Program-made: the position numbers and the translations under genes | The notes under the pieces: generated by a model | Seen by the model: the letters and a program-made list of their open reading frames with translations, nothing else | Database searches by the model: none | What the model was told of the DNA's origin: nothing | Shown here: piece by piece, positions 2,063 to 32,602 of the stretch | Position numbering within the stretch: the stretch's first letter is position 1 | How the letters are laid out: the number at the start of each line of letters is the position of its first letter | Assembly (NCBI GenBank): GCA_000415505.1 | Contig: KE354237.1 | Span: 1 to 41,386, forward strand | From: Streptomyces afghaniensis 772 | Lineage (GTDB): Bacteria > Actinomycetota > Actinomycetes > Streptomycetales > Streptomycetaceae | Direction: 5' to 3' | Length of the DNA stretch: 41,386 nt

Positions 2063-2707
2063 TCAGCCGGTCATGGCCAGCCGCAGCCCCAGTCCGACGA
2101 TGACCGTGCCCGTGATCCGGTCCAGCACGCGGCGAGCCGCGGGACTCTGGAGCCGGACGCGCAGGGCGCGGGCGCAGCCGATGAGGGCCGCCGACCAGAC
2201 CAGGCCCAGGGCGATGTGCACCAAGGCGAGCAGCACGCCGGTGGTGAAGTGCGGTGCGCCGTCGGGGATGAACTGCGGCAGCACGGCGACGTAGAAGACG
2301 CCCACCTTGGGGTTGAGAAGGTTGGTGAACGCGCCCTGACGCCACCCCTCCCCCAGGCTGTTGCGCACGGTCACCTCGCCGGGCGCGTCCCCGGCCGTCG
2401 AGCCCCGGTGGCGCAGCGTGTCCACCAGCATGCGTCCGCCGAGCCACAGGAGGTACACGACGCCCGCCCAGCGCAGGACCTCGTACGCCGCCCGGGAGGC
2501 GGTGATCAGGGCCGTGAGCCCGAGGGAGGTGAGAACGCCCCACACCAGGACGCCGGTCTGAACTCCCAGGACCACGCCCCAGGCCCTGCGGTGGCGGCCG
2601 AGCGCGGCGGTTCGCAGGATGAGCGCGGTGTCGATGCCCGGCGTGAGGGTGAGCAGCCCGACGACCAGGACGAAGGACCACAGTGCGGAGTCAGGGGCCA
2701 TGGCCAT
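2063..2707 (-). CDS. LysE/RhtB-family amino-acid exporter
   Basis: A 214-residue membrane protein with about six hydrophobic segments and the family signatures: a TPGID variant of the TPGPD motif near residues 22-26, and the NPK motif (LLNPKVGVFY) near 130. Family members export amino acids such as lysine, threonine, homoserine or derivatives. The ATG at 2707 has GGAAGG eight bases upstream and lies inside the end of the XRE regulator gene (17-base overlap), so the two are co-translated. The pair is divergent from the kanosamine/diaminopropionate operon. I infer that it may export an amino-acid product of that operon, such as diaminopropionate or its carbamoyl derivative. A housekeeping amino-acid exporter is the alternative. 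Confidence 0.85.
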   Translation of the reverse strand: MAMAPDSALWSFVLVVGLLTLTPGIDTALILRTAALGRHRRAWGVVLGVQTGVLVWGVLTSLGLTALITASRAAYEVLRWAGVVYLLWLGGRMLVDTLRHRGSTAGDAPGEVTVRNSLGEGWRQGAFTNLLNPKVGVFYVAVLPQFIPDGAPHFTTGVLLALVHIALGLVWSAALIGCARALRVRLQSPAARRVLDRITGTVIVGLGLRLAMTG

Positions 2708-3518
2708 GCGGGGAGCCTTCCGTGGGCAGCAGCAGGACGTAACGGAGCTCCTGCCGGTAGGCGGGGAGCAGGACCTGTGAGGTGACGGTGATCGTCTCGG
2801 GGGATACGTGGGGCAGGCGCAGTTCGTAGCGGTGCCCGTGCCGGTAGGCGAGGACCTTCGGGCTGCGGTCCCACAGTCCGCGGCACACGGGGGCGTCCAG
2901 GACGGCGTCGCGCAGCGCGGTGAGGTCCTCGTCGTCGGGACGGGTCACCAGCGCGAAACGCAGCAGGGCGAGGTACTGCACGGCGTGCCGTGGCCAGTCC
3001 ACGATCTGCTCGCGGGCCGTGGCGGTGGTCAGTGCCCAGCGCATGAGGTTGGCTCCCGGTTCACGGACCCAGGGGAACCAGTGGGCCATGGCCGCGTTGT
3101 GGTCGAGGACGTTCCACGCCCGGTCGGTGAGGTAACTGGGGAATTCGGTCTGCGCCGAGGCGAGTACGGCCAGCTCGTCCATGAAGTCCGGCGGGCCTTC
3201 GTCCTCGTCCGACTGTCCGCCGGCACCGGCGAGCGCGTGCCCGTACAGCGCCATGCGTTCGTCGGGGCCGAGCAGCAAAGCCTGGGAAAGGCGTTCGAGC
3301 ACCTCGGTGGAGAGCGGTACGCGCATGCCGGTCTCGAGATTCCGATACCAGCGTTCACTCACACCCATGCGGTCGGCTACTTCTTTTTGGGGTAACGGTC
3401 TCCCCCTGTTCATTTTGCTTCCCGCTTCCACCCGCCAAGCACGCAACAGATCGGGCAGCACATCGGTGCCGCACGTGTTGTCCGACACGGAAGAAACAGA
3501 TTGGGTGCGACGTGACAC
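2691..3518 (-). CDS. XRE-type helix-turn-helix regulator with MmyB-like ligand-binding domain, containing a TTA codon
   Basis: An XRE helix-turn-helix (QKEVADRMGVSERWYRNLET) sits near the N-terminus, followed by an MmyB-like sensor domain that includes WNVLDHNAAMAHWF and a conserved FALVTRPDDEDL region. This architecture is common in actinobacterial one-component regulators. I chose the GTG at 3518 because AGGGAG lies 12 bases upstream; a longer form from the GTG at 3560 has no ribosome site. Codon 3393-3395 is TTA (Leu42 of this form, inside GRPLPQKE just before the HTH) and sits among unusually A/T-ending codons. In Streptomyces, TTA needs the developmental tRNA of bldA. It overlaps the LysE gene and diverges from the biosynthetic operon, so it is the likely cluster-situated regulator. 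Whether it activates or represses cannot be read from sequence. Confidence 0.82.
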   Translation of the reverse strand: MSRRTQSVSSVSDNTCGTDVLPDLLRAWRVEAGSKMNRGRPLPQKEVADRMGVSERWYRNLETGMRVPLSTEVLERLSQALLLGPDERMALYGHALAGAGGQSDEDEGPPDFMDELAVLASAQTEFPSYLTDRAWNVLDHNAAMAHWFPWVREPGANLMRWALTTATAREQIVDWPRHAVQYLALLRFALVTRPDDEDLTALRDAVLDAPVCRGLWDRSPKVLAYRHGHRYELRLPHVSPETITVTSQVLLPAYRQELRYVLLLPTEGSPHGHGP

Positions 3519-3677
3519 TGCTCGGAAACACTCCCTCTGCGTATCGCCGGGAGAACACACCGTAACAAGGCCGGGACTGACTCGCGAAAGCGGGGCTACG
3601 AAAAGTGAAGGCCGTCACGCCGACACACGGAGTCCGCTCGGGGACATATGCCCTGCTCGGCGCGGTAAGACCGGAGA

Positions 3678-4073: not shown

Positions 4074-5444
4074 ATGACCGTCGCCACCGCCGAGCCCGGC
4101 ACGTTCACCGGCTCCCCCCTCCCCGGGGACAGCAGCAGTCTGCACCGGGTGGTCCAGGACCTCGCCCGGGGCGTGCGGACCGCCCACCCCGTGCGGGACA
4201 CCCTCGCCAACAAGGAGCTGGCGAAGGTTCTCTCGTCCTGGGACTCCTCCCCCGCTCCCGTGCACCCCGACACGCTCGTCGCTCCCCTCTTCCCCGAGCC
4301 GTCGCGTGCGGCGGGCGTCCCCTTCCTGCCGAAGGAGCGGCTCCTGTCGCGGGAGGAGAAGAGCGCCGCCGCCGACGCTTTCACGCGGGTGTTGGAGAGC
4401 TGCGAGTTCACCAGCGGTCCCGCCGTCACCGCCTTCGAGGACGCCGTCGCCGACTACCTGGCCCTGCCCTGCGCCGTCGCGACCGGCAGTGGGACCGACG
4501 CGCTCGTGATCGCTCTGCGTGCGGTGGGGGTCGGGCCGGGCGACGAGGTGATCATGCCGGCCAACAGCTTCGCCGCCACCGAGAACGCGGTCTTCGCCTG
4601 CGGTGCCGTGCCCGTGCTCGCGGACGTGACCCGGCCCGACGGGAACCTGGACCCGGAGTCGGTGGCGGAGCTGATCACTCCGCGCACCGTGGCCGTCCTT
4701 CCCGTCCATCTGTACGGCAAGCTCGCCGACATGGCGGGGCTGCGTGCCGTCGCCGACCGGCACGGTCTGCGGATCGTCGAGGACGCCTGCCAGGCACTCG
4801 GGGTGACCGGTGTGGGGCAGTACTCCGACGCGGCCGCCCTCAGCTTCAACCCGTACAAGAACGTCGGGCTGTGCGGGAAGGCCGGTGCCGTCGTCACCGG
4901 CTCGGCCGAGATCGCCGAGCGCTGCCGGGTGATCGGCTACCACGGCTTCGAGCCGGGCCGGAAGAACTTCAAGTGCGAGGCGTTCGGGCTCAACGCGCGC
5001 ATCGACAACACCATGGCCGCGATCGGTCTGGCCCTGCTGCCCTGGACCAGTCTGCGCGGACTGCGGCGCACCTATCTCGCCCGGCGCTACGTGGACGCGC
5101 TCCGCCCCCTCGCCGAGGAGGGCGTGCTCGAAGCGCCCGCCTTCGCTCCCGACCACTCCTGGCACCTGTTCCCCGTGCTGCCGGCCGGCGGCGCGGCGGC
5201 CCGCGACGCGCTGCTGGAGGACCTGGCGCGGACGAGCCGGGTGGAGTCGGACGTCTACTACCCCGTCCTGACGCACCGGCAGGAGACACCGGTGCGCGAG
5301 CGGCTCTTCGGACAGGCTCACCTGCCGCGGACCGAGTGGCTGCACAACCGGGTGCTGCACCTGCCACTGCACGCGGGTCTGTCCCTCGGCGAGCAGGACC
5401 GCGTGGTCGAAGCCCTGTACGCGGCGACGCGCCGGGTCCGGTGA
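4074..5444 (+). CDS. ntdA: NtdA-like PLP aminotransferase: 3-oxo-glucose-6-phosphate to kanosamine-6-phosphate
   Basis: A 456-residue DegT/DnrJ/EryC1/StrS-fold aminotransferase with an extra N-terminal region of about 85 residues, like Bacillus subtilis NtdA (about 440 aa). Visible PLP features are GSGTDAL (138-144, phosphate binding), the VEDACQ Asp237 that contacts the pyridine nitrogen, and the Schiff-base Lys262 in FNPYKN. NtdA transfers an amino group from glutamate to C3 of 3-oxo-glucose 6-phosphate. The specific call rests on the next two genes being the matching phosphatase and dehydrogenase in NtdA-NtdB-NtdC order. The ATG at 4074 has AGGAG six bases upstream; the open frame extends further 5' but that part has no ribosome site. 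It heads a seven-gene operon and ends four bases before ntdB. I saw no TTA codon in any of the seven genes. Confidence 0.85.
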   Translation: MTVATAEPGTFTGSPLPGDSSSLHRVVQDLARGVRTAHPVRDTLANKELAKVLSSWDSSPAPVHPDTLVAPLFPEPSRAAGVPFLPKERLLSREEKSAAADAFTRVLESCEFTSGPAVTAFEDAVADYLALPCAVATGSGTDALVIALRAVGVGPGDEVIMPANSFAATENAVFACGAVPVLADVTRPDGNLDPESVAELITPRTVAVLPVHLYGKLADMAGLRAVADRHGLRIVEDACQALGVTGVGQYSDAAALSFNPYKNVGLCGKAGAVVTGSAEIAERCRVIGYHGFEPGRKNFKCEAFGLNARIDNTMAAIGLALLPWTSLRGLRRTYLARRYVDALRPLAEEGVLEAPAFAPDHSWHLFPVLPAGGAAARDALLEDLARTSRVESDVYYPVLTHRQETPVRERLFGQAHLPRTEWLHNRVLHLPLHAGLSLGEQDRVVEALYAATRRVR

Positions 5445-5448
5445 CGGC

Positions 5449-6333
5449 ATGACCGACACCCTGCCGTTCGACACCACCGGCGGCCCGGCCCCCGGCCCGC
5501 CACCCCACCTGCGCCTGCCGGAGGCGGTGGGCTGGGCCGCGTTCTCCGACTTCGACGAGACCTACCTGGCCCATGCCGCGACCCCTGGGCAACGGGCCCA
5601 CCTCGCGGCGCTGGAGGAGTTCCTGCTGACGGAGGCCGTGGAGCACGGTCTGCTCTTCGGCTGGGTCACCGGCAGCTCGCTGGCCTCCGTGCGGGAGAAG
5701 ATGGCGCGCTGCGGCGCCCGTGTCCTGCCACACTTCGTGGCCGGCGCGCTGGGCACCGAGCTGACGTTCTTCCCCGACGGCGTCGCCCGCCCGGACCCCG
5801 AGTGGCGGCAACTGCTGCTGGACAGCGGATTCGACCGGGACCGGGTCACGAAGGCCGTGGACCGTCTGGCCCGGCACCGGGTCGAGCTGTTCCCGCAGAA
5901 CGCCCCGCACACCGGGAACCCGACCGAGTTCCTGGTCAACTACTACTTCCGCTCCCTCGGCGACCCGCGGCGCGACGAGCAGAGCCTCGGCCTCGTGCGC
6001 GACCTCGCCCGCGAGCACGGCCTCGGGCTCAACATCAGCCGCTGCAACCCCGCCACCGGGGACCCCGCCGACTGCTACGACGTCGACTTCCTCCCGCCGG
6101 TGTGCGGCAAGCGCAACGTCGTCAGGCACCTGTGCGCCCGCTTCGGCGTCGCGCCGGAGCGGACCCTCGCGTTCGGCGACAGCGGCAACGACCTGGAGAT
6201 GCTGGCCGCCGTGGGCCACGGCTACCTCGTCGCCAACTGCACGCCCGAGGCCAGGAGCCGCTTCCCGCAGGTGTCGCCGCACCCGCACGCCCAGGCCCTG
6301 CTCACCGCCTTCCGTCACCACCTCCGCCGCTGA
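5449..6333 (+). CDS. ntdB: NtdB-like HAD phosphatase: kanosamine-6-phosphate phosphatase
   Basis: A 294-residue HAD-superfamily hydrolase of the Cof/sucrose-phosphatase type (C2B cap). All four catalytic motifs are present: FSDFDET with nucleophile Asp34 and acid/base Asp36, WVTGSS with Thr74, Lys221 in CGKRN, and GDSGND with metal ligands Asp244 and Asp248. The first 25 residues are Pro-rich and probably disordered. In the B. subtilis pathway NtdB removes the phosphate from kanosamine 6-phosphate to release kanosamine. The four-base gap after ntdA points to translational coupling. A general sugar phosphatase role is possible, but operon context favours kanosamine. Confidence 0.83.
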   Translation: MTDTLPFDTTGGPAPGPPPHLRLPEAVGWAAFSDFDETYLAHAATPGQRAHLAALEEFLLTEAVEHGLLFGWVTGSSLASVREKMARCGARVLPHFVAGALGTELTFFPDGVARPDPEWRQLLLDSGFDRDRVTKAVDRLARHRVELFPQNAPHTGNPTEFLVNYYFRSLGDPRRDEQSLGLVRDLAREHGLGLNISRCNPATGDPADCYDVDFLPPVCGKRNVVRHLCARFGVAPERTLAFGDSGNDLEMLAAVGHGYLVANCTPEARSRFPQVSPHPHAQALLTAFRHHLRR

Positions 6334-6392
6334 ACCGCTTGCCCCGGTCCGGCGGGTCCGGACCGGAGGGCCGTCACTGAGAGAGGCAGACC

Positions 6393-7466
6393 ATGCAGAT
6401 AGGAATCATCGGCGCCGGCGGCATCGCCCTCGCCCACCTGCGCGCGGCCGAGACCGTCCCCGGCGTCGTACCGGCCGGTGTGTACGACGTGCTGCCGGAG
6501 AAGGCAGCGGAGCTGGCCGAGCGCTTCGGCTGCCCCGTCTTCTCCTCGACGACCGAGCTGTACCGGCACGTCGACGCCGTCGTCATCGCCTCGCCCAACC
6601 ACACGCACGCCGACTACGCCGAGGAGGCCGTCCGGCACGGCAGGCACGTGCTGTGCGAGAAGCCGATGACGACCACGGTGGCGGAGGCCGAGCGCATCAC
6701 CGCGCTGGCCGAGGAGAGCGGCCTGGTGTGCGCCATGGGCTTCAACTACCGCTATCTGGAGGCCATCGGCGAGATCAGGAACCTGGTACGGAGCGGGGAG
6801 CTGGGCTCCATCCTCTTCGTGGAGGCCGGTTTCCGGCGCGGCAGCGCCCTGACCCGCTCCCGTTTCACCTGGCGGGACAGCGCCCTGGGCCGCTCCACCA
6901 GCGGCTCCCTCGGCGACCTGGGCGTGCATCTGGTCGACATGCTCGACCGCCTCTTCGACAGCCCGGTCGACAGCACGAGCTGCCGCACCAAGCTCCAGGT
7001 CAACGTGCCGCAGAAGGAGGGCCAGGACGTCCAGGTCGACGACTACGCCTTCGTCACCGGCCGTCTGGAGAACGGCACCTTCTTCAACCTGGTCACGTCA
7101 AAGTCCTCGCTGCCGGAGGAGCTCGGCTTCTCGCTGAAGATCATCGGAGACCGCAAGGAGCTGTACTACCACTCCAAGGACGACACGACCTACTTCCTGA
7201 AGTCCCGTGTCACCTGGGAACAGGGCACGTTCACCCGCGAGGAGACGCTCGCCTCTCCGCCCGGTGAGGTACCCGGCTGGAGCGACACCTTCCGGCACCA
7301 GCTGCGGGAGTGGCGCGACGCGGTCACCGCGCGGGACACCGGCACCGCGCGGAGCGCCGACAGCGCCCTGGCCTGCTTCGGCGACGGGCTGCGCAGCCAG
7401 CGGGTGCTGGAGCGCCTGCTGGCGGGCGACCAGCAGGACGCGCTCGCCCCTTCGGTGACCTCGTGA
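6393..7466 (+). CDS. ntdC: NtdC-like glucose-6-phosphate 3-dehydrogenase (Gfo/Idh/MocA family)
   Basis: A 357-residue NAD-dependent sugar dehydrogenase. The Rossmann motif IGIIGAGGIALAHL starts at residue 3, the family CEKP motif has Glu89-Lys90-Pro91, and the catalytic-type segment GDLGVHLVD supplies Asp175 and His179. Length matches B. subtilis NtdC (about 350 aa). NtdC oxidises C3 of glucose 6-phosphate to the unstable 3-oxo sugar that NtdA then aminates, so it acts first in the pathway although third in the operon. The ATG at 6393 is preceded by a purine-rich ribosome site (gagagagg). Gfo/Idh/MocA enzymes are diverse, so the substrate rests largely on the ntdA/ntdB neighbours. Confidence 0.83.
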   Translation: MQIGIIGAGGIALAHLRAAETVPGVVPAGVYDVLPEKAAELAERFGCPVFSSTTELYRHVDAVVIASPNHTHADYAEEAVRHGRHVLCEKPMTTTVAEAERITALAEESGLVCAMGFNYRYLEAIGEIRNLVRSGELGSILFVEAGFRRGSALTRSRFTWRDSALGRSTSGSLGDLGVHLVDMLDRLFDSPVDSTSCRTKLQVNVPQKEGQDVQVDDYAFVTGRLENGTFFNLVTSKSSLPEELGFSLKIIGDRKELYYHSKDDTTYFLKSRVTWEQGTFTREETLASPPGEVPGWSDTFRHQLREWRDAVTARDTGTARSADSALACFGDGLRSQRVLERLLAGDQQDALAPSVTS

Positions 7467-7515
7467 CACCGCGCGACGCACACGCCAGGGGCGCGACAGG
7501 GAAGAGGAACGTCTC

Positions 7516-8736
7516 TTGACCGGGACCTCGGCGCAGGCCGCGCCACCCCGCACCACCGTGGCGCGGCCCCTGTTCAGTCCGTTCGCCGTCGTCGCGTCGT
7601 GCGTGGGCTTCGCCCTGATCGGGGCCCTGCAGGCGCTGTACGGTCCGGCGATCCCCGCGTTCCGCACCGAGTTCGGCCTGTCGCCGGCCGCCGCCGGGCT
7701 GAGCCTGAGCGCTCACTTCGTCGGCGGCGTGGCCGGTGTGCTGCTGCTCAACCGGGTGCACGGGCGGCTGGGCAACAGAACGCTGCTGTCCGCCTCGTAC
7801 GCGCTGATGGCTCTCGGCGGGGCCGGCTTCGCGCTGGCCCCGGCCTGGCCGTGGGCGCTGGCCTGCGCGCTGGTGACCGGGGTGGGCTTCGGCGGCATCG
7901 ACTACGGCCTCAACCAGCTGTTCTCGGTGGGGTTCGGCCGCCGCAGCCCCGCCATGCTCAACATCATCGGCGCGGCCTACGGCCTCGGTGCCGTGGGCGG
8001 TCCCGCACTTCTGGGGCTGCTGGGCCCGGGCGAGTACCCGGCCGTCTTCGCCGGGTTCGCCGCGCTGTCCGCCGCACTGGTGCTGGCGCAGCGCGGCGTG
8101 CGCGAGGGCGGGGACGCGCCCGCCCCGTCGCCGTCAGGCGAGGAGGGCGAGGAGAGCGAGGCGGGGACTCCCGGGCTGCGGTCCTCGGTGGCCCTGGTCG
8201 TCTCGGTCTTCATCGCGCTGTACGTCCTGATGGTGGCGGTGGAGACCGGGGTCGGCGGCTGGGAGCCGACGCATCTGGAGTCCGTCGGGCACGACGCGGC
8301 GACCGCCGCCACGGCGACCTCGGCCTTCTGGCTCATGGTGACCGTGGGACGACTGCTGGTCGCACCGCTGACCCTGCGCTGGTCCGTGCAGACGATCATG
8401 GTCGTCAGCTCCGTCGGCATGGTGGTCTGCCTGCTGCTCGCCCTCGTCCCGGCGGCGGCGCCCTACGCGTACGCCGGTGTCGGCCTCTTCCACGCGCCGA
8501 TCTTCCCGACGGGGCTGCCGTGGCTGTCCCGGGCGGTGCCGCGGGCGCGGCGGGCCGGGGCCTATGTGATCGCGGCCTCGATGATCGGCGGGGTGGCCGC
8601 CGGGCCGGTGCTGGGCAAGGGCATCGAACTGGCCGGTGTCGACGCCGTACCGGTGCTGCTGGCCCTGCCCGCGGCCGGTTGCCTCGCAGCCACCTGGTGG
8701 CTGATCCGGGCCACCCGGGACCGCTCGCCCTCCTGA
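7516..8736 (+). CDS. MFS transporter, probable product exporter
   Basis: A 406-residue integral membrane protein with about 12 hydrophobic segments and a charged loop (GDAPAPSPSGEEGEESEAG, about 196-214) splitting two six-helix halves, as in the Major Facilitator Superfamily. The start is a TTG at 7516 with a strong ribosome site (gaagagga) seven bases upstream; no better start is nearby. It sits between the kanosamine genes and the diaminopropionate genes, only 49 and 30 bases from them. I infer export of kanosamine or the final product and hence self-protection. Sugar uptake by an FucP/NanT-type carrier cannot be excluded from sequence. Confidence 0.82.
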   Translation: MTGTSAQAAPPRTTVARPLFSPFAVVASCVGFALIGALQALYGPAIPAFRTEFGLSPAAAGLSLSAHFVGGVAGVLLLNRVHGRLGNRTLLSASYALMALGGAGFALAPAWPWALACALVTGVGFGGIDYGLNQLFSVGFGRRSPAMLNIIGAAYGLGAVGGPALLGLLGPGEYPAVFAGFAALSAALVLAQRGVREGGDAPAPSPSGEEGEESEAGTPGLRSSVALVVSVFIALYVLMVAVETGVGGWEPTHLESVGHDAATAATATSAFWLMVTVGRLLVAPLTLRWSVQTIMVVSSVGMVVCLLLALVPAAAPYAYAGVGLFHAPIFPTGLPWLSRAVPRARRAGAYVIAASMIGGVAAGPVLGKGIELAGVDAVPVLLALPAAGCLAATWWLIRATRDRSPS

Positions 8737-8766
8737 ACCGCGAACTCGCTCACGTGAGAGGCTGCC

Positions 8767-9729
8767 ATGCTGTACGAGAACGCCAGCGACGTCATACTCG
8801 ACGATATTTTCCTCGAGCTCACCGGCTTCGTCCCCGGAGTGGAACTCGCCCTGAAAATGGAGGGGTTGAACCCGGCCGGGTCGATCAAACTGAAAACGGC
8901 GGTGGGACTCGTGGAGGCCGCCGAGAACAGCGGCGCCCTCGTCCCCGGCGGCCATGTCATCGAGTCCTCGTCGGGCAACCTGGGCATCGCGCTCAGCTCC
9001 GTCTGCGCCGCCCGGGGGTACGCCTTCACCTGTGTGGTGGACCCGAACACCTCGCAGCAGAGCAAGGCGCTGATGCGAGCCCTCGGAGCCGAGGTGGTCC
9101 TGGTCGGCGAACGCGACGCCTGCGGCGGCTATCTGCAGTCCCGCATCGACTACATCGCGGCGCGACTGCGCGAACACCCCTCGCTGGTTTGGCCGAACCA
9201 GTACGCGAACCAGGCCAATCCCCAGGCGCACCACGACACGACCGCACCCTCGATCATCAAGCAGTTCCCCACGGTCGACCACCTGTTCGTCGGGGCGGGC
9301 ACCACCGGGACGCTGATGGGCGTGGCCCGGTACTTCCGGCAGTACTCGCCGCGCACCCGGATCGTCGCCGTGGACACTGCAGGATCGATCACCTTCGGCT
9401 TCCCTCCGGGCCCCCGGCGCATCCCCGGACTCGGTACCAGCCGCCGGCCCGAGATCTTCCGTCCCGGTCAGGCCGACGAGACCGTCCTGGTGCCCGAGTC
9501 GGACGCGATCCGCATGTGCCGCCGGCTCGCGGCCGAACGGGGGCTGCTCCTCGGCGGATCGACCGGAGCTGTGCTGTCGGGTGTGCAGCGGCTGCGCGCG
9601 GACATCCCCTCCGGGTCCCGGGTGGTGGCGATCTCCCCGGACAACGGCGACCGCTACCTCCAGACCGTCTACAGCGACGAATGGGTCCTCGGCCACTACT
9701 CCCCCGCCGCCCTGGAAACGGCCGGCTGA
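8767..9729 (+). CDS. sbnA: SbnA-like PLP synthase: N-(2-amino-2-carboxyethyl)-L-glutamate synthase
   Basis: A 320-residue fold-type II PLP enzyme related to cysteine synthase. Lys41 in NPAGSIKLK is the Schiff-base lysine, SSSGN (67-71) is the substrate-carboxylate loop, and GAGTTGTLMG (about 177-186) binds the PLP phosphate. SbnA of staphyloferrin B synthesis replaces the phosphate of O-phospho-L-serine with the amino group of glutamate; SbnB then cleaves the adduct to L-2,3-diaminopropionate. The pairing with an SbnB homologue immediately downstream (37-base gap) is the standard signature of diaminopropionate synthesis in siderophore and antibiotic clusters and separates it from a housekeeping cysteine synthase. 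Confidence 0.87.
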   Translation: MLYENASDVILDDIFLELTGFVPGVELALKMEGLNPAGSIKLKTAVGLVEAAENSGALVPGGHVIESSSGNLGIALSSVCAARGYAFTCVVDPNTSQQSKALMRALGAEVVLVGERDACGGYLQSRIDYIAARLREHPSLVWPNQYANQANPQAHHDTTAPSIIKQFPTVDHLFVGAGTTGTLMGVARYFRQYSPRTRIVAVDTAGSITFGFPPGPRRIPGLGTSRRPEIFRPGQADETVLVPESDAIRMCRRLAAERGLLLGGSTGAVLSGVQRLRADIPSGSRVVAISPDNGDRYLQTVYSDEWVLGHYSPAALETAG

Positions 9730-9766
9730 ACCCGCGAACACCGTCTTGGGAGAACAGGAACAGAGC

Positions 9767-10774
9767 ATGTTCGAATTCAGCGTCATAGGGGGCCGAACGG
9801 CCCGGCAGATCATCGCCGACCACCGTCCCGGCATCGTGAGCGAGGTCAGGGAGACCTACCTCACCCACCGGGCCGGGGACACGGTGAACCCGGACAGCCA
9901 CTTCCTCCGCTTCCCGGAGAAGCCGGACAGCCGGATCATCGCCCTCCCCGCCTATCTCGGCGGCAAGCACGGGCTGGCGGGGATCAAGTGGATCTCCAGC
10001 TTCCCGCGCAACATCGAGCGGGGCGTTCCCCGCGCCTCGGCGGCCCTGCTGCTCAACGACTACACGACCGGCTACCCCTTCGCGGTGCTGGAGGCGTCCC
10101 AGATCAGCGCCGCCCGCACCGCGGCCTCCGCGGTGCTCGCCGCGGAGGTGCTCACGGGCGGCACCGCCGCCCGGCGGGTCCTCCTGGTGGGCGGCGGCAT
10201 CATCGCCCGCAACATCACGGAGTTCTTCGCCGCCCGGGGCTGGACCTTCGACAGCGTCGCGGTCCACGACCGCAGCCCGGAGTACGCCGCGGCGCTGGCC
10301 GACCACACCTCCGCCCGGCTCGGGTACGCCCCGGAGGTGGTGTCCGACCTGTCGGCCGAGCTGGAGAAAGCCGACCTCGTCGTCCTCGCCACCACCGCCG
10401 CCGTGCCGCACATCGTCGATCCGGGCTCCTTCGCCCCGGGCCAGGTGGTGCTGAACATCTCGCTGCGGGACATCGCCCCGGAGATCATCGCGGAGTCGTA
10501 CAACGTGGTCGACGACGTCGAGCACTGCCTCAAGGCCGACACCTCCGTGCATCTGGCCGAGCAGAAGTACGGCCATCGCGACTTCATCACCGGGACGCTG
10601 GCCGACGTCATGCGCGGGGACGCCGTGGCGGCAGACGACAAGCCCTTGGTCTTCTCGCCGTTCGGACTCGGCGTCCTGGACCTGGCGGTCGGCGCCTTCG
10701 TCTACCAGAAGGCCGTGGAGACCAACTCCCACACCGTCATCGAGGACTTCTTCGGGGAGACCCGGCGCTGGTAG
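9767..10774 (+). CDS. sbnB: SbnB-like dehydrogenase forming L-2,3-diaminopropionate (ornithine cyclodeaminase/mu-crystallin fold)
   Basis: A 335-residue NAD-dependent enzyme of the ornithine cyclodeaminase/mu-crystallin family. The Rossmann motif VLLVGGGIIARNI lies at about 138-150, with the family region GIKWISSFPRNIERGVPRASA upstream. SbnB oxidises N-(2-amino-2-carboxyethyl)-L-glutamate with NAD and water, giving L-2,3-diaminopropionate and 2-oxoglutarate. The ATG at 9767 has an AGGAA ribosome site; the frame stays open further upstream but overlaps sbnA and lacks one. With SbnA it forms a complete diaminopropionate module. Confidence 0.87.
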   Translation: MFEFSVIGGRTARQIIADHRPGIVSEVRETYLTHRAGDTVNPDSHFLRFPEKPDSRIIALPAYLGGKHGLAGIKWISSFPRNIERGVPRASAALLLNDYTTGYPFAVLEASQISAARTAASAVLAAEVLTGGTAARRVLLVGGGIIARNITEFFAARGWTFDSVAVHDRSPEYAAALADHTSARLGYAPEVVSDLSAELEKADLVVLATTAAVPHIVDPGSFAPGQVVLNISLRDIAPEIIAESYNVVDDVEHCLKADTSVHLAEQKYGHRDFITGTLADVMRGDAVAADDKPLVFSPFGLGVLDLAVGAFVYQKAVETNSHTVIEDFFGETRRW

Positions 10775-10841
10775 CCGCCGGCTCGCAGCCACCCGTCATC
10801 CGCTCGCGCCCGTCACCGCCCCTTCCGAAAGAGGACTAGCC

Positions 10842-11807
10842 ATGCAGCCCGCCCGCTTCCTGCCCGGCCCGCCCGCTCCCCGTCCGGAGCGCGGGATCTT
10901 CTCCCTCGGCGAACTGACGTCCGAGACCGTGCACCGACTGGCACGCCGCGCCTGCGACTTCCACGACGACCCGAAGGCCGGCGGACGGCCGCTGGACGGC
11001 CGGACGGTCGGAGTCCTGTTCACCCGGACCTCCACCCGGACCCGCACCGCGTTCACGGCCGGCGCCATCAAGCTCGGCGGTACGCCCGTGACGTTCGGTC
11101 CGGACGACCTCCAGACGAACACGGGCGAGTCGCTGACGGACACCGGTCGCGTGCTCGGTTCCATGCTGGACCTGCTGGTGGCCCGGACCTCGGGCCCGCT
11201 CCACGAGCTGCGCACGCTCTCCGGCTCCGGAGGCATCCCGGTGATCAACGCCATGGCGACCGAGGAGCACCCCACCCAGGGCATCTGCGACCTGGCCACC
11301 ATCTCCCTGGTCAGGGGCAGCCTCGAAGGCGTCAGGGTCCTGTACGTCGGAGAGGGCAACAACACGGCGACCGCCCTCGCCCAGGGGCTGTCACACGTCC
11401 CCGGCTGCCGGGTCACCTTCGCCACCCCGCCCGGGTACGGGCTCCCCGCGGACGTGCTGGAGGAGGCCGCCAAGCGCGGCGCCGAGCACGGCACGGAGTT
11501 GGTCGAGTCGCACTCCATGGACGAGCTGCCCGACCAGGTCGACTTCGTCTACACCACGCGCTGGCAGACGACCGGCACCAGCAAGGGCGACGCGCACTGG
11601 CGGCAGACGTTCCGCCCCTTCCACGTCGACGAGGCCCTCATGAACCGCTGGCCGGACGCCTGGTTCCTGCACGACCTGCCGGCGCACCGCGGCGACGAGG
11701 TCGCGGCCGGGGTGCTGGACGGAGAGCGGTCCGTGGCCTGGATCCAGGCCCGGATGAAGCTCACCAGCGCCATGGCGGCACTCGAGTGGGCGGCCGGGAC
11801 GGCCTGA
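10842..11807 (+). CDS. Ornithine/aspartate-carbamoyltransferase-family enzyme, predicted to carbamoylate diaminopropionate
   Basis: A 321-residue member of the ATCase/OTCase superfamily. The carbamoyl-phosphate site is intact: STRTRT (64-69) and HPTQ (143-146). The acceptor side is not that of ornithine carbamoyltransferase. The SMG loop is replaced by YTTRWQTTGT (237-246), and the HCLP motif reads HDLPA (277-281). This predicts a non-ornithine acceptor. Being directly downstream of sbnA/sbnB, the likely acceptor is L-2,3-diaminopropionate, giving 3-ureidoalanine (albizziine), as ureido-type diaminopropionate units arise in viomycin/capreomycin and zwittermicin pathways. The amino group of kanosamine is a less likely acceptor. 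The ATG at 10842 has a GAGGA ribosome site. Last gene of the operon; a hairpin follows at 11810. Confidence 0.8.
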   Translation: MQPARFLPGPPAPRPERGIFSLGELTSETVHRLARRACDFHDDPKAGGRPLDGRTVGVLFTRTSTRTRTAFTAGAIKLGGTPVTFGPDDLQTNTGESLTDTGRVLGSMLDLLVARTSGPLHELRTLSGSGGIPVINAMATEEHPTQGICDLATISLVRGSLEGVRVLYVGEGNNTATALAQGLSHVPGCRVTFATPPGYGLPADVLEEAAKRGAEHGTELVESHSMDELPDQVDFVYTTRWQTTGTSKGDAHWRQTFRPFHVDEALMNRWPDAWFLHDLPAHRGDEVAAGVLDGERSVAWIQARMKLTSAMAALEWAAGTA

Positions 11808-26480: not shown

Positions 26481-26579
26481 ATACCGTCACAGATAGGATC
26501 CTCACACAATCTGACCATTGTTTACCGTGCCCTGACGGTCTCCACCGGAGACCACCGGGTGTCCTCGAAGGAGTCGTTC

Positions 26580-28022
26580 GTGGCGTCCTCCCGCCGCCGC
26601 CCACCCGGACGCCGGGTCTGGCCCAAGATCAGGCTCCTGCTCCTGGTGGCGGTGGTCGCCGCCGGCGGCACGGCGCTGTATCCCGTGTGGAAGGCGGCGA
26701 ATCCGGACCCGCCCGAGCTCAAGGTCCGCTACCGGACCGACACCCCGGCGACCGCGACGGCCGCCAAGCCATCGCTGGAGGTCTTCAACGACACGGAGAA
26801 GCCACTGCCGTTGAGCGATGTGACGCTCCGGTACTGGTTCACCGCCGACGGCGCCGCCTCCTATGCCTTCAACTGCGTCAACGCCGCCTTCGGCTGCTCG
26901 AACGTCGCCGGCCGGATCGTCGCGATGGACAAGGCCACCGACAGCGCCGACCACTACTTGGAGGTCAGATTCACGGCCGGCGCGGGCAGCCTCGAGCCCG
27001 GCGCCAACAGCAAGGGCATCGACCTCCAGCTCTTCCGCACCGACCACAAGCAGTTGAAGCAGTCCGACGACCGCTCCTTCGACGCCGAGATGACGTCGTA
27101 CAAGGAGGCGGAGAAGGTCACCGCCTACAAGCGGGGCGTCCTCGCCTGGGGCGAGGAGCCGGACGGCACCGAGGCCAGTGCCGAGAAGAAGGCCTCGGCT
27201 CAGGCCGCCGCGCCCGACCCGCTGCCGGCTCCCCCGGCCGGGGTGCTGTTCGACGACTTCACGTACCTGGGTGCCAAGGACCCGGCCCTGTTCAAGCACG
27301 GCTGGCTGGTCCGCACCAGCAAGGGCGGCCCCGGCATCGAGAGCACCTGGTCGGCGGACGGCGTCACCTTCCCCGCCACCGAGGGCGCCCACGAGGACGG
27401 CCAGGTGCTCAACCTGCGCGCCAGCACGGACGGCACCAGGGCCGGGACGAAGCAGGCTAGCCTCGGCACGGCCGCGAGCAAGTTCCGCGACGGCACCTAC
27501 GCGGCCCGGATCCACTTCAGCGACGGGCCGGCCACCGGAGACCCCGGCGACCACGTCAACCAGACCTTCTACACCATCGGCGGCACGGGCTCGAAGTACA
27601 GCGAGCTGGACAACGAGTACATGCCGAACGGCGGCTGGGGCCGTCCCGGTCCCAAGCTCGACACCGTGACCTGGTTCGACCACAAGACGAACGACCGGGT
27701 CTACGAGACCACGAACAAGAGCCTCGCCGCCTGGCACACCGTGCTGATCAGGGTGAAGGACGGCGTGGTCGCCTACTGGCTCGACGGCAAGAAGCTCTTC
27801 CTCAGCAACGGGAAGTACGCCCCGCGCGCGGACATGTCCGTGAACTTCAACCACTGGTTCATCGATCTGCCCTTCAAGGGAAACCGTGCTTGGGACATGA
27901 AGGTGGACTGGCTCTACTACAACGCGAACGAGACCCTGTCGGCGAAGCAAGTGCAGTCCGCTGTCGACGGCTTCACCGACGAGGGCATGAACTACTTCGA
28001 CACGGTTCGGGAGTCCCGGTGA
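26580..28022 (+). CDS. Membrane-anchored protein with family-3 carbohydrate-binding module and GH16-like domain
   Basis: A 480-residue protein. A basic N-terminus (RRRPPGRRVWPK) precedes one transmembrane segment (about 18-35, no clear cleavage site), so it is probably a type II membrane protein facing outward. Residues about 46-185 look like a CBM3 module (KPSLEVFNDTEKPLPLSDVTLRYWF is split here; key marks are the Cys pair in FNCV and GCSNV, and KRGVLAWGEEP at its end). An Ala/Pro linker leads to a jelly-roll domain with ELDNE (342-346), matching the GH16 ExDxxE-type catalytic motif. Expected role: binding and cutting or remodelling a beta-glucan-like polymer at the cell surface. The GTG at 26580 has AAGGAG six bases upstream; a GTG at 26559 lacks one. 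Co-translated with the deacetylase (GTGA overlap). Confidence 0.75.
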   Translation: MASSRRRPPGRRVWPKIRLLLLVAVVAAGGTALYPVWKAANPDPPELKVRYRTDTPATATAAKPSLEVFNDTEKPLPLSDVTLRYWFTADGAASYAFNCVNAAFGCSNVAGRIVAMDKATDSADHYLEVRFTAGAGSLEPGANSKGIDLQLFRTDHKQLKQSDDRSFDAEMTSYKEAEKVTAYKRGVLAWGEEPDGTEASAEKKASAQAAAPDPLPAPPAGVLFDDFTYLGAKDPALFKHGWLVRTSKGGPGIESTWSADGVTFPATEGAHEDGQVLNLRASTDGTRAGTKQASLGTAASKFRDGTYAARIHFSDGPATGDPGDHVNQTFYTIGGTGSKYSELDNEYMPNGGWGRPGPKLDTVTWFDHKTNDRVYETTNKSLAAWHTVLIRVKDGVVAYWLDGKKLFLSNGKYAPRADMSVNFNHWFIDLPFKGNRAWDMKVDWLYYNANETLSAKQVQSAVDGFTDEGMNYFDTVRESR

Positions 28023-29506
28023 GCAAAAGGCGGTCCGGCGCCCACAGGCACGCTGCACAGGCAACGGAGGACAAGCCGGTGGTGAGCAGGCGCTCCGCGC
28101 TGCTGATGGGCGGTACAGGAGGCGTCGCCATGGCAGGCGGCGGCGCGTGGCTGGGCAAGGTGGTGGCGCAGCCCGCCGCCGCGCCGGCCGCCGAGGGAGC
28201 CATCGGAGGCCTCGCCACGCCTCCCCTCTACGCCCCCTCCGGCCGCCGACCCAAGTACCGCCGGGCCGGCTGGTCCCAGCAGTTCCAGGCGTCCCACGGC
28301 TGGACGCCCGGGGGTGCGGGCACCGCGTCGGCCGAGGCGAACGACAAGTCCGTCTTCGTGCGCGGCACCCAGTCGGTCCGGGTGACCACGAACGGCAGCG
28401 GCAAGCAGTCCTACGTCCGCAAGACCGGCATGCCAGCGGTGAGCCTGACCGGCAAGATGATCCGGCTCGTCTTCCGCGTCGACGACGTGACGAACCTGGC
28501 CAAGCTCGTCTTCTACCTGGGCAGCGGCTCCCTCGCGAACCACTTCGCCTGGACCTTGCACACCCACTCCAAGACGTCGGCCAACTACGTCCAGTCCGGG
28601 GAGTGGGTGACGGTCCACCTCCAGTGGGCGGACGTCAACGCGGCGGCCGGCACGTATTCCATCGGCGCCGACGGCAAGCCGTCCACGAAGACCGGCTTCA
28701 CCGACATGTCGTTCGCCGTGTACGACAACGCCGGCGGCCCGGTGACGTACCGGCTCCAGGCCGTGGAGCTGATACCGGACACGGTCTCGGTCTTCCCCAA
28801 GGGCGTCGTCTCCATCACCTTCGACGACTCACACAAGTCGATCCACGACCTGGCCCGCCCGGTCATGGACCGCTACGGCTTCCCGGGCACGGTCTACAAC
28901 ATCGCCGACGCCATCGGCACCGGCAGCTTCCTGACGCTCAACCAGATGCGTTCGATGCAGGACTTCTCCGGCTGGGAGATGGCGGGCCACTCGTACGCGA
29001 ACGCCGTCCACACGGCGAGCTATCCCAAGCTCACCGCCGAGGAGGCCGACGCCGACTTCCGGAAGCTGCGCGAGTGGCTGGTGTCCAACGGCTTCACCAG
29101 CGAGCACTTCGCGTATCCGCACGGCGCGTTCCAGAAGACGACCGACGGAGTCCCGGTCGACCAGATCGCGAGCCGGCATTTCACCACGGCCCGGTCGATC
29201 ATCTCCGAGACGATCGAGTCGTTCGCGCCGGCGATGCCGTACCGTCTCAAGGCGCTGACCGGCATCAACGACGGCACCGGCATCGGCGGTACGGCACTGT
29301 CGAAGCTGACCGGCGCGGGCGGCCGGCTCGACCGGTGCGTGAACAGCGGTGACTGGCTGATCCTCTGTCTGCACAAGGTCACCGAGGGCGCCCCCGCGAC
29401 GAGCACCGAGATCGGCAAGGCGGGCCTGGAGACGCTGATGAAGGCGATCGACGACCGGGACATCCCGGTGCTGACGGTCGAGGAGGCGATGGCCTCGTAC
29501 ACCTGA
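28019..29506 (+). CDS. Exported polysaccharide deacetylase (carbohydrate esterase family 4-like)
   Basis: A 495-residue protein. A twin-arginine-type signal (VSRRSALLMGGTGGVAMAGG, about 22-41) suggests folded export. Residues about 85-250 form a beta-sandwich-like accessory domain. The NodB-type domain begins at VSITFDDS with Asp269-Asp270, followed by GHSYAN (His324) and FAYPHGAF. The usual HSxxH metal motif reads HSYAN, so the second metal-binding His is Asn328, with another His at 331; metal binding or substrate choice may differ. Likely removes acetyl groups from an N-acetylhexosamine-containing surface polymer. The GTG at 28019 overlaps the upstream stop (GTGA). Convergent with the synthase operon on the other strand. 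Confidence 0.83.
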   Translation: MSKRRSGAHRHAAQATEDKPVVSRRSALLMGGTGGVAMAGGGAWLGKVVAQPAAAPAAEGAIGGLATPPLYAPSGRRPKYRRAGWSQQFQASHGWTPGGAGTASAEANDKSVFVRGTQSVRVTTNGSGKQSYVRKTGMPAVSLTGKMIRLVFRVDDVTNLAKLVFYLGSGSLANHFAWTLHTHSKTSANYVQSGEWVTVHLQWADVNAAAGTYSIGADGKPSTKTGFTDMSFAVYDNAGGPVTYRLQAVELIPDTVSVFPKGVVSITFDDSHKSIHDLARPVMDRYGFPGTVYNIADAIGTGSFLTLNQMRSMQDFSGWEMAGHSYANAVHTASYPKLTAEEADADFRKLREWLVSNGFTSEHFAYPHGAFQKTTDGVPVDQIASRHFTTARSIISETIESFAPAMPYRLKALTGINDGTGIGGTALSKLTGAGGRLDRCVNSGDWLILCLHKVTEGAPATSTEIGKAGLETLMKAIDDRDIPVLTVEEAMASYT

Positions 29507-29530
29507 GGCCCGGACGCACCAGACCGGACA

Positions 29531-29569
29531 CATGAGAGAGGGGCGGCCCCCCGGCCGCCCTCTCTCATG
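29531..29569. terminator. Bidirectional terminator between convergent polysaccharide operons
   Basis: Arms 29531-29548 and 29553-29569 are complementary over 17 bases with one bulged G and a CCCC loop. It lies between the two stop codons and should serve both operons. Confidence 0.75.
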
Positions 29570-29588
29570 CCCGTCCGACGGAGGCGGC

Positions 29589-31334
29589 CTACCAGCCGCC
29601 CTGGCCGTTCCCCTGCTGCCAGGAAGGGTCCTGGTACGGGTACGCGCCCTGCTGGGGCTCGTGGCCATGTCCCGGGTACTGCTGCTGGTACTGGTCGGGG
29701 TAGCCGTCATACCCGCCCTGCCACTGCTGATGGCCGGCCGGTTCCGGTGTCCCCCAGCTCACGCGCTGCTGCGGGGCCGCCGCGTGCTGCTCCTCGTCGT
29801 AACCGGGGATCGGCTGCGGCTGGGCCGGGATGCCGCCGGACGGGCGGGGCCGGGTGCGCAGGGCCACGCCCTCCAGACGCATCAGCTGGAGCGTCTCGGT
29901 GACCTTCTTGTCGGAGTACGGGTCCTCTTCCTCGAAGATCTCCGTCACATCGGACTCGTGGTCACCGGCCACGGACACCTCGACACCGCCCTGGCGGGTG
30001 CCCCAGCTGCCCTTGTGCAGGGTGAACAGGGCGTAGAAGCGCAGCGGGGTGAGCAGGGTCAGCTGGATCACGCCGTAGATCGGGGCGAGCAGGAACATGC
30101 CGAACCGCTTGACGAAGCCCATGCCGCGGCGCGGGAAGTCGAGGTAGCGCACATTGCGCAGGTAGCCCATCAGGACCATGAAGACCAGGTAGTCACCGAT
30201 GTGGTTGACGAACTGCTCGGGCTTGATGATGGGCAGGATGACCATCGAGTAGAACATCGCCGAGCCGAAGACCAGCCACAGCGCGAGTTCCATGCAGGTC
30301 AGCCAGAAGGCGGGCCGGTACTTCTTCTGGTGCCGGAAGGCCCACAGCGACTCGCGGAAGAAGGACTTGTTCCAGCGGACCTGCTGGCGCAGGAAGTGCG
30401 GCAGTTTCTCGGGGACGGCGGTGTAGCCGACGGCCGTCTCCTGGAAGACGACCTGGCCCTCCATCAGGCAGTAGTTGGTCATGCGGCGGTCGTCGCCGAA
30501 GACGGCCGGCTTGCCCAGGAACTGCTGGTTGAGGAAGTCCGGCAGGTACTTGCGCACCAGCGTGCCGCGGTAGGCGGAGAGCGCGCCGCAGCAGCACAGG
30601 ACCGACTTCAGCCGCGAGTAGGCGGCCCGCTCGAAGAGGAACGAGTTGCCGTATCGCAGGTCCTGCAGGCGCGTGAAGATGTTGCTGTCGTGGTTGAGCG
30701 CCAGCACCATGCCGGTGGAGGCCATGATCTTCTCGTCGGCCAGCGGCAGCAGCAGTTCGCGCACGGTGTCCCGGGACAGCACGGTGTCCGAGTCGACGCA
30801 GAGGAAGATGTCCGAGTACGGCGCGGCCTCGAAGCCCAGCGCCAGCGCCTCGCGCTTGCCCTTGTTCTCGGGCTGGACGCTGACGGTGTACTTGACGCCC
30901 TTGGCCTCGAACTCGCGGCGCATCTTCTTGGCCGCGCGGATGCCGGAGTCGTCGGCGCTGGCGTCGTCGATGATGTGGATCTCGTTGGGCAGGCGGCTCT
31001 GCGCGAGGAGGCTGCGCATGCCCTGCTCGAACATCACCGGGTCCTCGTTGTAGATCGGGATGACCGCGGTGACCCAGGCGTTCTCCAGGTACTCCAGCTC
31101 CTCCCGTCCGGCCTTGGCCGGACGGTAGAAGAGCGCGCCGAACATCTTCAGGGCGAGCAGGCCCATGGCACCCATCGAGTACAGGTGCAGGGACCCGGCG
31201 TCGAGCCGGGTGGCGATCAGCGCGGCCAGGCCCAGGAAGACGAAGTACGAGACCTTCAGGTGCCGCCGTTTGCGGTGCGCGCGGCGGCCGCCGGAGTCGA
31301 CGGCCCCGGGTATGTACGTGTCTTCGGTTGTCAC
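29589..31334 (-). CDS. Hyaluronan-synthase-like processive glycosyltransferase (GT2) with long disordered tail
   Basis: A 581-residue membrane GT2. Two N-terminal helices (about 28-68) precede the catalytic domain: VIPIYNEDP (91-99), DDASADDS (123-130), NKGKREAL (157-164), DSDT (181-184), GDDRRMTN (280-287) and the processivity motif QQVRW (317-321). RWNKSFFRES downstream closely resembles streptococcal HasA. Four or so further helices form the export channel. Residues from about 505 onward are a Gln/Tyr/Pro/Gly-rich tail absent from HasA (about 419 aa). It polymerises UDP-sugars and extrudes the chain. The GTG at 31334 overlaps the stop of the UDP-sugar dehydrogenase gene (GTGA), which ties an acidic sugar to the product. 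Confidence 0.87.
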   Translation of the reverse strand: MTTEDTYIPGAVDSGGRRAHRKRRHLKVSYFVFLGLAALIATRLDAGSLHLYSMGAMGLLALKMFGALFYRPAKAGREELEYLENAWVTAVIPIYNEDPVMFEQGMRSLLAQSRLPNEIHIIDDASADDSGIRAAKKMRREFEAKGVKYTVSVQPENKGKREALALGFEAAPYSDIFLCVDSDTVLSRDTVRELLLPLADEKIMASTGMVLALNHDSNIFTRLQDLRYGNSFLFERAAYSRLKSVLCCCGALSAYRGTLVRKYLPDFLNQQFLGKPAVFGDDRRMTNYCLMEGQVVFQETAVGYTAVPEKLPHFLRQQVRWNKSFFRESLWAFRHQKKYRPAFWLTCMELALWLVFGSAMFYSMVILPIIKPEQFVNHIGDYLVFMVLMGYLRNVRYLDFPRRGMGFVKRFGMFLLAPIYGVIQLTLLTPLRFYALFTLHKGSWGTRQGGVEVSVAGDHESDVTEIFEEEDPYSDKKVTETLQLMRLEGVALRTRPRPSGGIPAQPQPIPGYDEEQHAAAPQQRVSWGTPEPAGHQQWQGGYDGYPDQYQQQYPGHGHEPQQGAYPYQDPSWQQGNGQGGW

Positions 31335-32602
31335 AGCTTGACCACCCGCGGGTGGTCGGCGGACTTGCCCCGGGTGTCGAAGAGTGTGCGGGCCCGGTCG
31401 GCGAGCACGTCCAGGTCGATCTCGCGGTGCGGCTGGAGCAGGATGGTGAGGTCGGCGGCCTCGGCGGCGGCGAGATAGTCCTCGGCACGCTCGACGGGGG
31501 CGCCACCGACGCGCCAGTCCTCGACCCGCGGGTCGAAGTAGACGAGTTCGGCGCCGCGCGCGAGGAGGTTCTCCGCGACGGCCAGCGCCGGGCTCTCGCG
31601 CTGGTCGGAGATGTCCGGCTTGTAGGTCACGCCGAGCAGCAGGACGCGCGAGCCGCGCACGGCCTTGCCCTGGTCGTTGAGCAGATCGGCGGCCCGGTTG
31701 ACGACGTGCACGGGCATCCGCTGGTTGATCTCCTGCGCCAGCTCCACGAACCGGAACGGAATGCCCAGCGAACGGACCTTGTACGACAGGTAGTTGGGGT
31801 CGATCGGGATGCAGTGCCCGCCGACGCCGGGGCCGGGGTAGAAGGGCGCGAACCCGAACGGCTTCGTGGACGCGCACCGGATCGCGTCCCACAGGTCGAC
31901 ACCGATCTCACGGCAGAACATCGACATCTCGTTGACGAGCGCGATGTTGACGTGCCGGTAGGTGTTCTCCAGCAGCTTGGCCATCTCGGCCTCGCGGGTG
32001 CCCTTGGCCTCGACGACCCGGTTCACGAAACGCTCGTAGAGGGCGCGGGCGGCCTTGGTGCAGTCGGCCGTGACGCCGCCGACGACCTTGGGCGTGTTCT
32101 CCAGCCCGAAGGAGGCGTTGCCCGGGTCGATGCGCTCCGGGGAGAAGGCGAGGTGGAAGTCGGCGCCGACGCGCAGCCCACCGGCCTCCAGCCGGGGCCT
32201 GACGACTTCGTCGGTGGTCCCCGGGTACGTCGTCGACTCCAGCACCACGAGCGTGCCGGCCCGCAGATGGGCGGCGATGTCGTCCACGGCCGCGTGCACC
32301 GCGCCGAGGTCCGGAGCACCGTGGTCGGTGAGCGGCGTCGGCACGCACACCACGACCGCGGCGGCATCCGCGATGACCCCGGCGCGGTCGGTGGCCTCGA
32401 AGCCCCGCTCCAGCATGGCGCGCACATCGGAGTCGGTGATGTCGTCCACGTGCGAACGGCCGGCGTTCAGCCCGTCGACCACCCGTCGGCTGCGGTCGAG
32501 ACCGACCACCTTGAGGCCGGCGGCAGCCGCGGACCTGGCCAACGGCAGCCCCACGTAACCGAGTCCGACAACCACAAGATCCACCGCGGAGGATCTGCTC
32601 AC
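31331..32602 (-). CDS. Nucleotide-sugar 6-dehydrogenase, WbpA/TviB-like (UDP-N-acetylhexosamine type)
   Basis: A 423-residue enzyme of the UDP-glucose/GDP-mannose dehydrogenase superfamily. The NAD motif VVVGLGYVGLPLA lies at residues 10-22. The catalytic Cys264 is in GPGVGGHCIPIDPNYL. That context is the form typical of UDP-GlcNAc/UDP-ManNAc 6-dehydrogenases; UDP-glucose dehydrogenases usually have GGSCFPKD. So the product may be a UDP-N-acetylhexosaminuronic acid instead of UDP-glucuronate; this is inference from the motif. The GTG at 32602 is preceded by GGGGA seven to eight bases upstream; the open frame extends 22 codons further without a ribosome site. It heads the two-gene synthase operon. 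The gap at 32603-32810 contains an A/T-rich pocket (about 32690-32710) that may be promoter. Confidence 0.85.
   Translation of the reverse strand: MSRSSAVDLVVVGLGYVGLPLARSAAAAGLKVVGLDRSRRVVDGLNAGRSHVDDITDSDVRAMLERGFEATDRAGVIADAAAVVVCVPTPLTDHGAPDLGAVHAAVDDIAAHLRAGTLVVLESTTYPGTTDEVVRPRLEAGGLRVGADFHLAFSPERIDPGNASFGLENTPKVVGGVTADCTKAARALYERFVNRVVEAKGTREAEMAKLLENTYRHVNIALVNEMSMFCREIGVDLWDAIRCASTKPFGFAPFYPGPGVGGHCIPIDPNYLSYKVRSLGIPFRFVELAQEINQRMPVHVVNRAADLLNDQGKAVRGSRVLLLGVTYKPDISDQRESPALAVAENLLARGAELVYFDPRVEDWRVGGAPVERAEDYLAAAEAADLTILLQPHREIDLDVLADRARTLFDTRGKSADHPRVVKL

Follow-up and report, generated by a model that had tools for sequence, protein, structure and literature searches.

Can one compact run of genes in Streptomyces supply two simple antimetabolites, or does it build a single conjugate from both? 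The question is raised by contig KE354237.1 of Streptomyces afghaniensis 772 (assembly GCA_000415505.1), of which positions 1 to 41,386, the whole stretch of DNA analysed here, are referred to as the window. At 4074-11807, on the plus strand, seven co-directional genes encode homologues of NtdA, NtdB and NtdC, a major facilitator superfamily (MFS) carrier, homologues of SbnA and SbnB and a carbamoyltransferase, in this order. We regard it as moderately probable that they form two small-molecule pathways running in one direction, which provide a separately exported pair of antimetabolites with a possible shared target. The evidence comes from gene identities, from motifs that indicate the acceptor of the carbamoyltransferase, from the separability of the two modules and from the differing descent of SbnA and SbnB; from these sequence comparisons we infer the products, their routes of export and the shared target.

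In the proposed scheme, NtdC, NtdA and NtdB would convert glucose 6-phosphate to kanosamine, SbnA and SbnB would form L-2,3-diaminopropionate (DAP), and the carbamoyltransferase would convert DAP to L-3-ureidoalanine (albizziine), a glutamine analogue. Each product would leave the cell on its own, the amino acid probably by a LysE exporter encoded beside the operon and the sugar possibly by the MFS carrier. Albizziine would then act on glutamine amidotransferases. Kanosamine, once phosphorylated inside the target cell, would act on glucosamine-6-phosphate synthase, and this enzyme may be a target of both.

Gene identities and organisation of the cluster

The original prediction, made from the sequence letters alone, described seven co-directional genes with small gaps and proposed a name for each; the coordinates and intact frames bear out the arrangement, and matches to PDB, NCBIfam and Pfam support the names. 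The intergenic gaps are, in order, 4, 59, 49, 30, 37 and 67 bases when SbnB is read from the ATG at 9767, a start chosen by its relatives, a longer open reading frame opening at 9581. A purine-rich stretch ahead of the start is clear in six of the seven genes and weak for NtdB, which begins 4 bases after NtdA. Ten window genes compared with their counterparts in Streptomyces africanus contain no stops, with pairwise ratios of nonsynonymous to synonymous substitution (dN/dS) of 0.11-0.42, and on such sequence criteria the cluster is real and intact. A Pfam scan, which covered 30 window proteins and not all open frames, found no nonribosomal peptide synthetase (NRPS) or ATP-grasp domain among them. 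This agrees with the predicted lack of NRPS, ATP-grasp and glycosyltransferase genes in the operon, the glycosyltransferase found in the scan being a family 2 enzyme approximately 18 kb away.

The first gene (4074-5444) encodes an NtdA-like 3-oxo-glucose-6-phosphate aminotransferase with the Pfam DegT/DnrJ/EryC1 domain, for which the top solved structure is NtdA itself (PDB 4k2b, E 3e-111). It is followed by an NtdB-like HAD phosphatase (5449-6333), assigned as kanosamine-6-phosphate phosphatase, with NtdB as top solved structure (PDB 3gyg, E 4e-55) and with motifs DFDET and GDSGND invariant in all four aligned sequences. The NtdC-like glucose-6-phosphate 3-dehydrogenase (6393-7466) matches only the GFO/IDH/MocA family in general, and its name rests on relatives that adjoin NtdA and NtdB. 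Homologues of all three enzymes of the NtdABC pathway are thus present together, and we take their reactions to be those of the NtdCAB route from glucose 6-phosphate to kanosamine. The MFS carrier behind NtdC (7516-8736, Pfam MFS_1) has counterparts of 74% identity in Streptomyces sp. WAC 01529 and of 92-97% in four sister loci. The MFS proteins after NtdC in ten Bacillus/Paenibacillus loci are 22-23% identical to it, and five other actinobacterial NtdABC loci contain no match. A fold search gave no substrate for this carrier, as its model (mean predicted local distance difference test score 78) matched MFS proteins generally, with NorA first and G6PT1 third.

The second module opens with SbnA-like (8767-9729) and SbnB-like (9767-10774) enzymes of DAP biosynthesis, the latter a dehydrogenase, both above the cut-off of their families (402.7 bits against 349.95 for TIGR03945 and 416.6 against 326.9 for TIGR03944). 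The last gene (10842-11807; Pfam OTCace_N and OTCace) retains the carbamoyl-phosphate motifs STRTR and HPTQ, and carries TRWQTTG (11556-11576) and HDLP (11670-11681) in place of the DxxxSMG and HCLP of ornithine enzymes. The genome's own ArgF has the ornithine motifs DVWVSMG and HCLP. Assignment as an ornithine carbamoyltransferase was rejected, as the motifs differ and the score against TIGR00658 (215.5 bits) falls below the cut-off of 280.85. Among 36 rows (33 distinct) picked from close matches and related loci, HDLP is found in all and (T/S)RWQTTG in 34.

The same two motifs, (T/S)RWQTTG and HDLP, are described as features of DAP transcarbamylases in a review (PMC4581275). Diaminobutyrate enzymes also have HDLP, together with TRWQSMG, a difference which that review terms less obvious. 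The biosynthesis of viomycin and of zwittermicin A includes the formation of beta-ureidoalanine by DAP transcarbamylases (PMC4581275, PMC6022934). Moreover, relatives of SbnA and SbnB occur together with close relatives of the carbamoyltransferase in other clusters. Because the DAP-transcarbamylase motifs occur with adjoining SbnAB genes, the likely product is L-3-ureidoalanine (albizziine), and the DAP carbamoylation originally proposed is supported at the level of motifs and gene linkage. Elsewhere in this genome (G000; contigs C598, C576, C796, C501, C674 and C673) there are five further SbnB-family genes above the cut-off and, on C673, a second DAP-type carbamoyltransferase.

Such gene families allow another reading, in which DAP or ureidoalanine goes as a building block into a nonribosomal peptide whose genes lie elsewhere, and kanosamine has no connection with it. 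The known DAP transcarbamylases do serve viomycin and zwittermicin A biosynthesis (PMC4581275, PMC6022934), the carbamoyltransferase on C673 adjoins an open frame of 2502 codons, and SbnB relatives in the genome number six with that of the window. However, these other genes are themselves available for peptide use, the linkage to LysE described below suggests a free amino acid, and it would be a coincidence for a kanosamine core of the same family to have been joined elsewhere to SbnA and SbnB of other descent. We therefore consider a peptide building block unlikely, and return to the exported pair of antimetabolites.

Distribution and separability of the two modules

Two NtdB peptide patterns were scanned over one genome per species (84,980 species), and 97 stretches matched, of which 21 encode relatives. 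NtdA and NtdC are also present in 19 of these 21 loci; the other two, both in Macrococcus, show NtdB alone. As exact peptide patterns were required, the scan may miss divergent members. Among 295 genomes of the genus NtdB was found in 5 (in one as a fragment), and among 391 genomes of the order in 6, with three genomes in both lists, so that the kanosamine pathway appears to be rare in Streptomyces.

The NtdABC-MFS core occurs in six loci, namely the window, S. africanus NRRL B-24243 (L064), Streptomyces olindensis (L065), Streptomyces sp. WAC 01529 (L066) and the genomes G197 (L010) and G341 (L171); a further entry (L085, G093) is the same chromosome as L066, with 100% identical overlap, and the two are counted as one locus. 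Five of the six occupy the same chromosomal site, before hemE. The combination of NtdABC, SbnAB and carbamoyltransferase on which the original prediction was built was found, on searching across genomes, in the window, S. africanus and WAC 01529. In S. africanus the whole unit is present, with 95-97% amino-acid identity to the window.

In G197 the four core genes are 92-96% identical to those of the window, and a stretch corresponding to 8765-11743, containing sbnA, sbnB and most of the carbamoyltransferase gene, is absent. The G197 sequence parallels that of the window until shortly before sbnA begins; 13 unaligned bases follow, and the alignment is regained within the final carbamoyltransferase codons, so the 3' end of that gene remains as a scar; LysE is reduced to a fragment. 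Stops are absent from the G197 NtdABC and MFS genes, and their pairwise dN/dS relative to the window is 0.18-0.27, values which include the time before the deletion. As G197 keeps NtdABC-MFS intact without the DAP genes, the kanosamine part can stand alone. A recent foreign insertion confined to the window was rejected, since S. africanus has the whole unit and G197 its scar. At the S. olindensis and G341 loci neither DAP genes nor LysE were found. The branches that separate these two have supports of 87/89 and 88/90, flanking genes give no order among G197, G341 and S. olindensis, and the pattern in S. olindensis and G341 may reflect either gain or loss of the DAP genes.

The exporter concerned is of the LysE/RhtB amino-acid type (Pfam LysE; 2063-2707, minus strand), is divergent from the operon and upstream of it, and had been overlooked in the original prediction. 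Its presence agrees with that of the DAP genes in all six core loci: both are present in the window, S. africanus and WAC 01529, both are remnants in G197, and neither was found in the remaining two. LysE is read from this pattern as belonging with the DAP module and not with the kanosamine module. A precedent for the association of a LysE-type gene with an antimetabolite amino acid is AmbA of Pseudomonas, for which export was proposed (PMC4357302). Restriction of this LysE to the window and WAC 01529 was considered and rejected, as 37 further genomes among the 295 contain relatives of 60-72% identity.

Whether two molecules or one conjugate are made had been left open by the original prediction. 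A conjugate, for example 3-ureidoalanyl-kanosamine formed by an enzyme encoded elsewhere or unrecognised, would fit the single direction and small gaps of the operon and the joint presence of both modules in three loci. It is nevertheless quite unlikely, given that the 30 proteins scanned include no NRPS or ATP-grasp domain, that NtdABC-MFS occurs without DAP genes in G197 (where it is intact), S. olindensis and G341, and that a member of an amino-acid exporter family accompanies the DAP module only. The separability of the modules and the company of LysE therefore favour two separately exported products and weaken the case for a single conjugate.

Repeated joining of the modules

The WAC 01529 locus differs from the window in both gene order and flanking genes. 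Its first part contains a carbamoyltransferase (66%), a LysR regulator, LysE (65%), a 2-hydroxyacid dehydrogenase, SbnA and SbnB, and the remainder a DdaG-like ligase, an AsnB-like amidotransferase, an ATP-grasp protein, an MFS protein, NtdA, NtdB, NtdC and the core MFS (74%). The DdaG-like ligase scores 376.8 bits, below the family cut-off of 700. In NtdA and NtdC trees, built by a quick method with a branch test only, WAC 01529 is sister to the window group. When the window, S. africanus and WAC 01529 were tested as one clade, the grouping was rejected with p 0.0014 for SbnA, with p 5e-10 for SbnB and, weakly, with p 0.019 for the carbamoyltransferase; the grouping itself came from cluster content, and the SbnB and carbamoyltransferase tests postdate the viewing of their trees. 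This rejects descent of the window and WAC 01529 DAP genes from one common origin as far as SbnA and SbnB are concerned; the carbamoyltransferase argues against it only weakly. The SbnB tree places WAC 01529, at a starred branch, with the Streptomyces loci L153 and L154, which contain SbnAB, DdaG-like, AsnB-like and ATP-grasp genes and show no NtdABC match in the stretch examined.

Since the NtdA and NtdC genes are sisters while SbnA and SbnB are of different descent, the trees suggest two or more separate events that joined DAP chemistry to a kanosamine core; a single event with later replacement of SbnAB could also leave such a pattern. The notion of two unrelated operons abutting by chance, for which NtdABC-MFS without DAP genes in sister loci might speak, is very unlikely, as the combination with LysE recurs in WAC 01529 in another order, with other flanks and with SbnA and SbnB of other descent, and only 30 bases separate the modules in the window.

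Two further types of DAP locus were seen in Streptomyces. One comprises L153 and L154 together with L156, which resembles them in its run of SbnA, SbnB, DdaG-like and AsnB-like genes, lacks an ATP-grasp match and has no NtdABC match in the stretch examined; all three are candidates for dapdiamide or A19009-type dipeptides. The other is a recurring cluster shared by six genomes (L056/L086, L155, L157, L158, L159 and L044/L087), which encodes LysE (36-37%), an AurF-type N-oxygenase, a DAP-type carbamoyltransferase, SbnA, SbnB and a formyltransferase-like protein and in which the stretches examined gave no match for NtdABC; its product is possibly an N-oxidised ureidoalanine.

Possible targets of the products

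In fungi, kanosamine enters by glucose transport and is then phosphorylated, and kanosamine 6-phosphate is a competitor of fructose 6-phosphate for glucosamine-6-phosphate synthase, its Ki being 5.9 mM (PMC9272926). The same enzyme is inhibited by glutamine-analogue acyl-DAP compounds, which are called selective for it and among which is a fumaramoyl-DAP dipeptide from Streptomyces (PMC9272926). Albizziine is a reversible competitive glutaminase inhibitor that has been applied to HisFH (PMC8115485). Both window products could therefore meet on glucosamine-6-phosphate synthase, and albizziine may instead act on other amidotransferases. The DdaG-like ligases of WAC 01529 point to acyl-DAP dipeptides, the class with known inhibitors of this synthase, and by analogy this lends indirect support to the idea of a shared target, which is stronger for WAC 01529 than for the window. 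Dapdiamides themselves act on glucosamine-6-phosphate synthase.

Several points weigh against the exported pair as formulated here, in addition to the limits on the G197 dN/dS values and on the SbnB and carbamoyltransferase clade tests given above. The window NtdABC proteins are only 37-45% identical to their Bacillus relatives, and kanosamine and 3-ureidoalanine are predicted products. Members of this LysE subfamily occur in 38 of 295 Streptomyces genomes, including that of the window; the subfamily is thus common, and its placement in one locus could be due to chance. Kanosamine 6-phosphate is, at a Ki of 5.9 mM, a weak inhibitor, and albizziine does not occur in the review of glucosamine-6-phosphate synthase inhibitors (PMC9272926). 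Furthermore, no extra glmS gene marks the cluster, as eight of the nine genomes examined have two copies regardless of it.

A self-resistance glmS was accordingly rejected for the window, none being found there and two copies being usual among those nine genomes; WAC 01529 has one. In two other genomes (G053:C7:313354-315177 and G052:C1:3095400-3097223) a second glmS lies approximately 20 kb from the NtdA/NtdB locus, possibly a former self-resistance link. The G052 locus has no more than a fragment of NtdB, and no NtdC was found in it.

Neighbouring features of the window

The operon is flanked by a divergent MmyB-type regulator gene and the LysE gene on one side and by hemE on the other. The regulator (HTH_31 and MLTR_LBD; 2691-3560, minus strand) is divergent from NtdA, and its gene holds a TTA codon at position 56; none occurs in the seven operon genes or in LysE. 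TTA is a rare leucine codon that in Streptomyces requires the bldA tRNA. A promoter scan gave no site of the sigma-70 type, and terminators were matched about as often as expected by chance (3 against a mean of 2.1). At 26559-31892 a CBM_3 protein, a polysaccharide deacetylase and the family 2 glycosyltransferase (a weak chitin-synthase match) are grouped, apparently unrelated to the operon.

Relation to known systems and biological meaning

The Bacillus operon for kanosamine, ntdABC, encodes NtdA, NtdB and NtdC in the order seen here and frequently has an MFS gene behind them, whereas the window adds DAP genes, a carbamoyltransferase and LysE, none of which was matched within up to 10 kb on each side of Bacillus ntdABC loci. 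The DAP transcarbamylase of the viomycin and zwittermicin A pathways converts DAP to beta-ureidoalanine and has the same motifs (PMC4581275, PMC6022934), but the window has an amino-acid exporter and kanosamine genes, and no NRPS domain was found with its DAP genes among the 30 proteins scanned. Antibiotics of the dapdiamide/A19009 type share the logic of a DAP-derived antimetabolite for the glutamine site, and WAC 01529 has the DdaG-like, AsnB-like and ATP-grasp genes. In the window the group would be carbamoyl and not fumaramoyl, and no DdaG, amide synthetase or ATP-grasp ligase accompanies SbnAB among the proteins scanned. Kanosamine is reportedly made together with zwittermicin A by Bacillus cereus UW85 and with bacilysin by Bacillus subtilis, from genes in separate clusters; these strains resemble the present one in pairing kanosamine with a second antibiotic, while the window genes lie in one run.

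No described cluster with this combination was found in the open-access literature searched, consistent with the original prediction. Every component is known by itself; what is new, as far as we know, is that they occur combined, that the combination was apparently assembled repeatedly and that its modules are separable. If the proposed scheme is correct, the operon would amount to a natural combination therapy in compact genetic form, in which two cheap antimetabolites, made without an NRPS, are aimed at glutamine-dependent synthesis of cell-wall precursors. Sister strains with and without the DAP module provide natural controls, and if different DAP genes were indeed recruited repeatedly, this would indicate a real synergy of the two simple compounds.

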